A DNA stretch of 64,000 nt from Dysosmobacter sp. (GTDB lineage: Bacteria; Bacillota; Clostridia; Oscillospirales; Oscillospiraceae), in the NCBI GenBank assembly GCA_022778785.1, contig JALFSO010000009.1:23085-87084 (forward strand), in the 5' to 3' direction. Position numbers and translations under genes: made by a program. Position 1 is the first letter of the stretch. The number at the start of each line of letters is the position of its first letter. Below, piece after piece: positions 35,359 through 48,196 of the stretch. Under the pieces are notes generated by a model that worked only from the letters and a program-made list of their open reading frames with translations, was not told the DNA's origin and ran no database searches.

Positions 35359-35389
35359 ACGGCATTCCAAACCGCGTTTGGAATGCCGT
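35359..35389 (-). terminator. Terminator of the dnaX-ybaB operon
   Basis: Perfect 13-bp stem (35359-35371 with 35377-35389), CCGCG loop; leftward RNA continues TTTTCC. The core (GGCATTCCAAA) resembles the hairpins in the 46.2-46.7 kb repeat element. Confidence 0.82.
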
Positions 35390-35416
35390 CCCGTCGTTTT
35401 CATGCAATGTGCGCCC

Positions 35417-46164: not shown

Positions 46165-46973
46165 CAGGGGGAATTTTGTCCCGTGAGACGGGGTGCGGCG
46201 AAGGTCGCGGGCTTCAAAACCCCCTTTCTCTTTTTCCTGGGAAAAAGAGAAAGCGCCTTTTGATGGTGTCAAGAGAAAAAGGCTCGGCGGCGGCATTTCA
46301 GGCTCCGCCTGAAATGCCTTTTCCCGCCTTTTACGGGGGTTGTTTGGGTGCTGACTTGTCGGATTGCGTCTGCTCAACTGCGTATGGCAGGTTCAGAAGC
46401 TGGGGGTGCTTCCGGATGCCCTTTGCTCCTCTTTTGCTGCCGCACATTGGCAGTTGCGGAAAGATTGTCGGAAGGGGTGGTTCCGGATGGCCCCTGCTTC
46501 TGTTTTGCTGCTATATTCCGGTGGGCATCGAAAGAACGGTGCCAGGGTCTCCTTGAATGCCGGGGTGCGGCAGCAAAAGAGGAGGGCGGTGCATCCGGAA
46601 GGGGCCCGGACTTCCGTTGGTATCAAGAGCGGATACAGGAGGCAAAGCCCTCGACGACCACCGGGCCCAAACCCCGTAATCAGGGCGGGAAAAGGCGTTT
46701 CAAACGAAGTTTGAAATGCCGTCGCCCCACGCCTTTTCTTCTACACCATCAAAAGGCGCATCTTCTTTTCGGCGCAACCAACAGGGGTCCCCCGCCGCAA
46801 CCCGGCGTAGCGGTTGCGGTGGGGAAGAGGAGGGGCAACGGAGCGGTATGAGGGATGCCCTCCCCCGCAGGGCGTCCCGAATATGGCGCAGTTTGACCCG
46901 ACGACGAATGGGGGTTTTGAAGCTGCCGGGCTTCCCCGGCACCCCCGTTTCCACGGGACAAACGCCGCTCTTT
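46165..46973. repeat. ~800 bp imperfect inverted-repeat element between arcA and arcB
   Basis: No convincing gene fills this 874-bp gap. Instead three modules occur on both sides in inverse order and orientation: A (46175-46226 and 46908-46966, sharing TTTGTCCCGTG and GCTTCAAAACCCCC), B (46253-46338 and 46674-46760, sharing GCGCCTTTTGATGGTGT, a GGCATTTC hairpin and CCTTTTCCCGCC), and C (46409-46445 and 46564-46601, sharing CTTCCGGATGC and CTCTTTTGCTGCCGCAC). A ~120-bp GC-rich piece (46775-46900) is only on the right. The centre is near 46505. Confidence 0.8.
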
Positions 46974-48196
46974 TAAGGGTCCTCTCTCCACAGCGGCATG
47001 GACATGCACCGCGGCCCGCCGCGCCCGCGGCTCAATTCCGCGCTGGGGATGACGTGGAGCTTGATCCCCGCCTCCTCCAGAGAGCGGTTGGTGACGTAGT
47101 TCCGGGAGTACACCACCACCTCGCCGGGGGCAATGGCCAGGGTGTTGGAGCCGTCGCTCCACTGTTCCCGGGCGGCGTCGATCTCGCTGCCCTGTCCGCA
47201 GGGGATCAGCGTCACCTTGTCCAGATGCAGGTGCTCCTTCAGAATGTCCTCCAGACGGCCGTCCTCCTGGCGGATCTTCATTTTCCGGTTCTCATCCAGC
47301 TCCATGACGAACACCGTGATCTGCTGGAGAATGTTGGGATGGACGGTGAATTTGTCCCGGTCCACCATGGTGAACACCGTGTCCAGGTGCATGAAGGAGC
47401 GGGTCTTGGGAATATTGAAGGCCAGCACCTTCCGGAAGGTCTCGCTCTGAGACAGCACCGTCTCCGCCAGCTGGTCGATGGAATCCTCTTGGGTGCGCTG
47501 GGAGATGCCCACCGCCAGCACCTCCGGCGACAGGACCAGGATGTCGCCGCCCTCCAGCGAGGACGTCTCGCCCCGGTCATACCAGCGGGGGGCGTTTTTG
47601 TACTCCGGATGATACTGGAAAATGAATTTGCCGAACAGCGTCTCCCGATTCCGGGTGGCGGTGTGCATCCGGTGGATGGACACGCCGGTGCCGATGGTGG
47701 CGAAGGGGTCCCGGGTAAAATACAGGTTGGGCAGCGGGTCCACCGCGAAGGGATAGACATCCCCGGCGGCGGAGACGTAGTCCCCCAGCTTCGCCGTCTC
47801 CTGCCGCAGCTCCGACCGCCGGACGCCGGCCATGCAGGTGTCGATCAGCTCCCGGTCCCCCAGTGAGGAGAGGTACTCCTTCAGGCCGTCCCGCAGGCGC
47901 TCCTCCCGGAGATTCGCCTCGTCCAAAAACTCCCGGATGAACGCCTGACGGACCTCGCTGTTCACCAGGCTCTCCGCCGCCAGATCCGCCAGGTACACCA
48001 CCTCCACGCCGCTGCGCCGCAGACAGTCGGCAAAGGCGTCATGCTCCCGCTGGGCCTCCTTCAGGTAGGGGATATCGTCGAACAGCAGCCGCTCCAGGTA
48101 CTCCGGCATCAGATTCTCCAGCTCCCGGCCGGGACGGTGGAGCATGACCTTTTTCAGCCGTCCGATCTCCGAGGTATTGTGGATTCCAGTCTCCAA
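46973..48196 (-). CDS. arcA: Arginine deiminase
   Basis: A 407-residue amidinotransferase-fold enzyme that hydrolyses arginine to citrulline and ammonia, the first step of the ATP-yielding arginine pathway. Motifs: [26 protein letters not shown] (in parts), [36 protein letters not shown], and the catalytic cysteine C397 in [11 protein letters not shown]. The start is TTG 48196 with AAAGGAG 10 nt upstream. It is followed by arcB, but only after the long inverted-repeat element. Arg-regulator boxes were looked for upstream and not clearly seen. Confidence 0.96.

Follow-up and report, generated by a model that had tools for sequence, protein, structure and literature searches.

The gap between arcA and arcB in the stretch of 64 000 nucleotides analysed here (the window) is probably filled by one copy of a dispersed mosaic element of nested palindromes, likely non-coding, that belongs to Oscillibacter/Dysosmobacter and relatives and has paired, inward-facing ends that could fold into an intrastrand triplex. 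Copies of the element are dispersed, their ends occur as inward-facing pairs, and the three tracts that would make up the three strands covary locally. The relevance of triple-helical DNA in living cells is still debated, and mirror covariation is the triplex equivalent of the compensatory base changes used for RNA.

The element in the arcA–arcB gap

In minus-strand order, arcA (46973–48196, minus) is followed by the element and then by arcB (minus, boundary at about 46098). A nested inverted repeat occupies the gap and, judged by its outermost matching ends, the copy in the window extends from about 46175 to 46962, some 10 bp short of the stop codon of arcA. The first-pass annotation had described a large imperfect inverted repeat here, and this was confirmed as being far above chance, both by the nested arms and by single-strand folding. 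The arms pair 46175–46200 with 46937–46962 (73% complementary), 46196–46228 with 46906–46938 (79%), 46243–46328 with 46684–46769 (76%, over 86 nt) and 46396–46452 with 46558–46614 (75%); folded as single-stranded DNA, 46167–46968 gave −222.8 kcal/mol, with z = −12.6 against 20 dinucleotide shuffles. Both B hairpins were located in the window, as were the arm runs that had been quoted, GCTTCAAAACCCCC and GCGCCTTTTGATGGTGT. Repeat depth changes sharply near 46170 and 46965, falling away on the depth profile, so the limits originally assigned to the inverted repeat coincide with the borders of a unit that is itself repeated; taking the depth profile, own-genome BLAST and inverted repeats together, the whole dispersed element, which has no assigned strand, was placed at 46167–46968.

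The left half of the element reads on the plus strand. Its outer arm (46175–46223, from inverted repeats) begins TTTGTCCCGTG and carries small G+C-rich hairpins and a TTCAAAACCCCC box, the hairpin modules varying in other copies. The left triplex motif (46224–46282), identified by the positions of its parts and by covariation of R and R′, consists of a tract Y, CTTTCTCTTTTTCC (46224–46237), a tract R, GGAAAAAGAGAAAG (46240–46253), a spacer box S (46254–46270) and a tract R′, AAGAGAAAAAGG (46271–46282), which is an exact mirror of the R stretch GGAAAAAGAGAA. The left B box (46287–46329, an inverted repeat) contains a hairpin, GGCATTTCAGGC/GCCTGAAATGCC (46292–46318), followed by TTTTCCCGCC; by eye, the stem letters of this box change in matched fashion among other copies. 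The central array (46396–46614, not assigned to a strand) was recognized from direct and inverted repeats and motif maps, and holds units of about 71 bp in both orientations, those at 46403–46440 and 46474–46511 being direct and that at 46558–46614 inverted; the number of units differs from copy to copy.

On the minus strand, the right half contains a B box hairpin with TTTTCCC (46687–46727, an inverted repeat) and an R-S-R′ stretch (46732–46770), identified from positions and from a weak covariance-model match (L044 3816–3872, minus, 23 bits). Here R is GAAAAGAAGA (46761–46770), S occupies 46743–46760, and R′ is AGAAGAAAAGG (46732–46742), mirroring R over 10 nt as AGAAGAAAAG; the R and R′ sequences are unlike those of the left end, yet are likewise mirrored. 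Beyond them lie an alternative end module, module X (46784–46907, minus), detected by a change in depth, by genus matches to query positions 591–750 and by a pattern search, and the right outer arm (46908–46962, minus, from inverted repeats), which carries the end nearest to arcA. The mirrored A-B-C...C′-B′-A′ order proposed in the first-pass annotation therefore holds as a symmetry, but an imperfect one, because the extra module X of about 124 bp stands in for the right-end Y arm; with that arm lost, the full motif is possible only at the left end in the window. By eye, relatives of module X also stand alone in related genomes.

A likeness of the B hairpin to a terminator hairpin at 35359–35389 had also been noted; it consists in a similar stem, GGCATT...AATGCC. 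The sequence at 35359–35391 is a single hairpin, CGGCATTCCAAACCGCGTTTGGAATGCCG, near genes named dnaX and ybaB in the earlier annotation, and could be a relic of a B box or a chance likeness.

Dispersed copies and mosaic structure

The genome from which the window comes (2.49 Mb in 121 contigs) gave 198 overlapping BLAST matches to the element, and, besides the copy in the window, contained 30 repeat bodies of at least 380 bp and up to 1.3 kb (29 own-genome stretches), when an interrupted copy in L025 is taken as one. Among the readings initially offered, a small non-coding mobile repeat fits best, given the many copies, the clean boundaries (198 BLAST matches with sharp depth edges, the observation suggested as a check) and the patchy sites in relatives, although movement itself does not follow from these data.

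The copies are mosaics, in which outer G+C-rich hairpin modules, an end module, box B and a central array are followed by the same parts in reversed order. The outer hairpin modules differ between copies, the central units measure about 70 bp, and at some ends, including the right end in the window, module X takes the place of the outer hairpin arm. In some copies of the own genome, module X has a further module of about 115 bp (ACACCGTCGCGGCATTGCG...GGCGGCGCTTCGCC) nested inside it (L016, about 25–130; L029, about 1330–1460; L032, about 1330–1440), and this 115 bp module is found at arcA–arcB of another species (L059). It looks like a further dispersed element, and its presence within module X in one place and at arcA–arcB in another fits growth by nesting.

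Within the own genome the copies are much alike (DNA mostly 70–90% identical), while relatives yielded short matches only, and one pattern of box S is present in 10 of the 61 genomes of the genus and absent from the own genome. These sequence comparisons suggest that copies may undergo turnover or homogenization within each genome. At least 18 contig ends of the own assembly carry such elements, which may therefore be one reason why these gut bacterial genomes assemble badly.

A protein-coding element appears unlikely. When six overlapping open reading frames were compared with the other own copies, long matches were few, those listed being only 28–46% identical, and the Pfam search gave no match for five of the six; a frame of 77 amino acids (46393–46626, minus) was stop-free in 16 of the 20 matches covering at least 80% of it. 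A gene for a small protein of about 50 amino acids, of one family, lies between the ends in L025 (9263–10575, contig C40 of the own genome) and in L234 (1500–2242, another genus of the family), where it adjoins an HTH_26 gene. No Pfam family scored over the cut-off for this protein, and the gene is possibly cargo or a chance insertion; we rejected it as the element's own gene because just five of 30 loci of this small protein had an end-module match (E ≤ 0.001) in the stretch examined.

The end module and its inward pairing

From outside to inside, the end module consists of the pyrimidine tract Y, a short loop, its purine complement R, the box S, mostly 17–19 nt long, and R′, the mirror of R. 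This motif, which had escaped the first-pass annotation, is the most informative feature of the element. Adjacent end modules (those within 1.2 kb of each other) face inwards in 39 of 39 pairs, 36 of them distinct, at distances of 264–768 bp; the count is based on the best 50 of 90 own-genome matches and the best 84 of 106 genus matches, in which three genus elements are duplicated. Two separate insertions in mirror order, as had been suggested for the arcA–arcB gap, are refuted by this result: with all adjacent pairs facing inwards, it is the mirrored pair that forms the unit.

Covariance model R1, which detects the end module, matched 47 of the 61 genus genomes. It gave at least 53 matches for the own genome and at least 76 for another; these per-genome counts are lower bounds, because scoring was limited to 88 candidates in each genome. 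Across the order, 20 of 197 genomes, the own genome included, and 15 of 111 genera had matches, which were mostly weak. In the genus, 13 of 21 pairs (11 of 18 without three repeated pairs) displayed an end polarity, with S ending GGTCC at one end and GGTGG or GGTGT at the other; the pairs of the own genome did not show this polarity.

Versions with a short spacer, in which R and R′ are separated by about 5–6 nt, occur in other genera (L144, L146, L148, L243, L247 and L249), an example from L249 being GAAAAGAAAGAGAAGAACCAAGAGAAAGAAAAG. A bacterial hairpin ending AAAGAAAAGTAACCAAAAGAAAAGG may be of the same short-spacer R/R′ kind.

Mirror covariation of R and R′

We collected 229 hairpins with an exact homopurine arm from all the loci examined. 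Without any filter, the 193 distinct hairpins divided into 75 favouring the mirror, 45 favouring the direct order, 62 ties and 11 that are their own mirror; this set reads each palindrome from both sides, so that the outer reading, which has no R′, serves as a control. Filtering on box S, a step blind to R′, selected 70 of the 229, of which 61 are distinct. Perfect mirrors (up to 12 nt, the offset being free within 3 nt) made up 52 of these 61 modules, and 55 fitted the mirror better than the direct order, four fitted both equally, two had a self-mirrored R and none fitted the mirror worse. With one module for each distinct R, 26 of 31 were perfect mirrors.

Alignment A1, comprising 26 rows of the 35 modules listed, gave mirror identity between R and R′ in 242 of 260 cells, compared with a mean of 191 and a maximum of 222 when R′ was permuted (0 of 2000 permutations as high), at most 150 when R′ was slid and at most 194 in the direct order. 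In all but one of its ten column pairs, A-A and G-G are both represented. The complementarity of Y and R in A1 was partly built in by the exact-hairpin search, whereas a larger set, the best 84 of 106 covariance-model matches (54 of them distinct), is free of this, exact hairpins not being required; the model for it had A1 as its training set and takes the letters of R′, but not their covariation, into account. In these 54 rows, the mirror cells of R and R′ agree in 515 of 538 cases, compared with a mean of 428 and a maximum of 453 in 1000 permutations, 316 in the direct order and 208–329 when slid; the Y–R cells are Watson–Crick pairs in 537 of the 538 cells with letters, with no T-G and one C-A.

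The two ends of a single element provide a further comparison. Where they differ in R, the local mirror identity exceeded the identity across the ends in 11 of 12 genus pairs and in eight of ten own-genome pairs, the rest being ties. R′ therefore changes in step with its local R, and this three-strand covariation spans many species and, within single genomes, the two ends of one element. However many dyad relations are combined, the copies that result are direct or reverse-complementary and never mirrored; the large palindrome is thus no explanation for the mirror, whereas a third strand can account for it.

An explanation in which A-rich purine runs are alike merely through composition, mutation and shared descent, with no third strand, must be weighed against these numbers. 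The tracts are about 80% A, and the identity expected by chance is correspondingly high (0.75 with R permuted; 428 of 538 cells with rows permuted); moreover, the copies are related by descent and the permutations ignore the tree. However, row permutation, sliding and the direct order all fall well short of the observed agreement, matched A-A and G-G both occur at nine of ten column pairs, and local identity beats identity across the ends, and we consider such a by-product highly improbable.

Outside the genus, the 34 matches comprised eight fitting the mirror better, five fitting the direct order better, 14 ties and seven without a clean hairpin. In L175 (1139–1208), R contains a non-purine (AAAATAGAAA) and R′ has one at the mirror-image position as well (AAAGACAAAA); this joint change falls outside the A/G code.

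Possible folded forms of the ends

At each end, a Y–R hairpin on one strand with R′ laid back along R would correspond to a class II, purine-motif intrastrand triplex, and the opposite strand would offer the corresponding pyrimidine-motif (class IV) alternative. The order that defines class II in the available sections of PMC4666352, Y-R-R′ along a single strand, is found at the left end in the window, the right end being without Y. The antiparallel third-strand match of this class (A.A, G.G) is also present (515 of 538 cells; 52 of 61 modules perfect), whereas the second loop, mostly 17–19 nt, is longer than the 1–6 or 0–10 nt of published class II searches.

The same sections of PMC4666352 report triplex formation in vitro for a bacterial repeat of class II, and the evidence for bacterial triplexes given there rests on in vitro folding, abundance and instability. 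Points against a triplex are that in vivo footprinting of BoxC/TMECO gave no support for a stable one, and that the stability of purine-motif triplexes is driven by G-G-C triplets (both from the sections available of PMC4666352), while the R tracts here are A-rich. Since, from this source, purine-motif triplexes cannot form in RNA, single-stranded DNA would be the molecule of first choice. The G.T opposition that box S keeps in 52 of 54 rows hints that the strand with Y-R-R′ may be the folded one.

The same ends might instead act in RNA, as a bidirectional 3′-end stabilizer or terminator that sets arcA against arcB by means of a U.A-U RNA triplex. RNA is able to adopt intrastrand triplexes of the pyrimidine type (PMC4666352, in part). 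Owing to the inverted arrangement of the ends, read-through transcription from either side would place the class IV tracts, ordered as pyrimidine strand, Y and R, at the downstream end of the transcript, making such a device independent of direction. The locus is compatible with this role, since a minus-strand transcript from arcA to arcB has the intact left end downstream. In addition, 20 of 28 flanking gene 3′ ends overlap the element or are no more than 7 nt away from it, compared with four of 27 gene 5′ ends. On the other hand, the element occurs in all types of spacer: the 19 classified spacers of 22 elements were 10 tandem, five convergent and four divergent by a rough codon-usage gene caller, a distribution similar to that of the 37 spacers in the window (22, seven and eight) and so indicating no preference for pairs of gene ends. 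These gene-context counts are only a pointer, as the caller is not free of errors (in L044, it picked the strand opposite to that of arcB). The Y–R stem, with no T-G and one C-A in 538 cells, does not show the wobble pairs that would be expected in an RNA stem, where G-U is usually tolerated, and the G.T of box S speaks for folding of the other strand. Finally, a search of the window and four element loci against Rfam 15 gave no match over the gathering score inside the element. We therefore regard an RNA-level device as unlikely.

Under the preferred reading of the ends as DNA triplexes, selection would preserve the folded, three-stranded DNA. Less firmly, the fold could be a means of persistence or spread, for example as a substrate for a nuclease or transposase, or for replication-repair acting on single-stranded DNA, and the bodies of the elements would be homogenized later within each genome. 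A broader proposal, which we put forward only tentatively, is that the elements are genus-wide mobile DNA with triplex-defined ends, in which selection acts on the third strand and a candidate transposition or copying enzyme recognizes the paired ends. Neither a transposase (PF01797 search) nor a target duplication (flanks inspected by eye) was tied to the element, which counts against mobility. The natural variants of R and R′ are available for testing the function of the third strand.

One specific route to mobility would be that of a REPIN-like, non-autonomous element, the inverted, structured ends of which are moved in trans, as single-stranded DNA, by a Y1-type (RAYT/IS200) transposase. 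The inverted doublet architecture (39 of 39 pairs inward, 36 distinct) is in line with this, as is the weak correlation between Y1_Tnp and end-module counts in the 61 genomes (Spearman 0.38, p 0.003), a value that ignores kinship and completeness. The own genome, however, contains a single Y1 fragment, which is below the cut-off and has a stop codon; some genomes rich in end modules (G020, G060, G006 and G051) have no Y1 matches, and none of the 12 Y1 loci examined has an end-module match. We consider this route rather improbable, and the RAYT/IS200 transposase (PF01797) was rejected as the driver on account of the sub-cut-off fragment and the 12 loci.

Comparison with known repeats

BOX is a modular intergenic repeat, and the present element resembles the bacterial interspersed mosaic elements, BOX and MITEs in being modular and intergenic, with variable internal units and nested palindromes. 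MITEs are given as shorter than 200 bp in the available part of PMC2229807, whereas the unit here is about 790 bp, other whole bodies measure 0.4–1.3 kb, and the ends are three-strand motifs. From among the features of MITEs (inverted ends, a target duplication and a length below about 200 bp), we found the inverted ends only; inspection of the flanks by eye revealed no duplication.

Intrastrand triplex repeats (BoxC/TMECO) and inverted-doublet mobile repeats are already known. As described in the accessible text of PMC4666352, PIT/BoxC/TMECO share with our element the order Y-R-R′ on one strand, with a homopurine R and an antiparallel A.A/G.G third strand, and dispersed copies, at times in inverted pairs. 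Searches for them used loops of 1–6 or 0–10 nt, whereas here the second loop is long and may pair with itself. They differ further in that the A-rich tracts here vary by species, R′ tracking R, and that the motifs pair inwards around a body of 0.3–0.8 kb, in Oscillospiraceae. With REPINs and their RAYTs, as covered by the part of PMC3116915 available, the element shares an inverted doublet of structured ends, high copy number and an extragenic location; it is distinguished by a far larger body, a variable internal array and ends of triplex type rather than simple hairpins, and no linkage to RAYT was found in the own genome or at the 12 Y1 loci.

Among the papers listed in the literature searches, with most subscription journals outside their scope, none described these repeats from Oscillibacter or reported DNA triplex repeats in which the third strand covaries; neither ‘Oscillibacter’ nor ‘covari’ occurs in the text of PMC4666352. 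What is new in relation to that literature is the combination of genus-wide elements bounded by two triplex motifs that pair inwards, a second loop that is long, and covariation of the third strand.

The same site in relatives

Named relatives of ArcA identify the genus as Oscillibacter/Dysosmobacter. In 26 genus genomes, including the own genome (of 30 loci), the arcA–arcB gap measures 21–960 bp, and several of the long gaps have the same architecture in different letters. The 80 named loci include 71 in which arcB lies downstream of arcA, across gaps of 15–961 bp; an end-module match, of a diverged version, lies in the gap in 15 of these 71 named genomes, and 46 of the 56 without one have gaps of 133 bp or less. 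On an ArcA tree built from these 71 loci and the window, presence of the element at 16 of 72 tips requires 12 changes, at least seven of them forced by starred branches, although gain and loss are indistinguishable on the tree; shuffled presence labels required 14.6 changes on average, with 19 of 500 shuffles as low as 12. A starred close pair differs at this site, L113 having a match in a gap of 230 bp and L139 a gap of 21 bp.

Some sites are shared or repeatedly used. In two species (L181 and L183), an element directly follows the stop codon of apparently the same gene, which we take to encode an Era-like GTPase.
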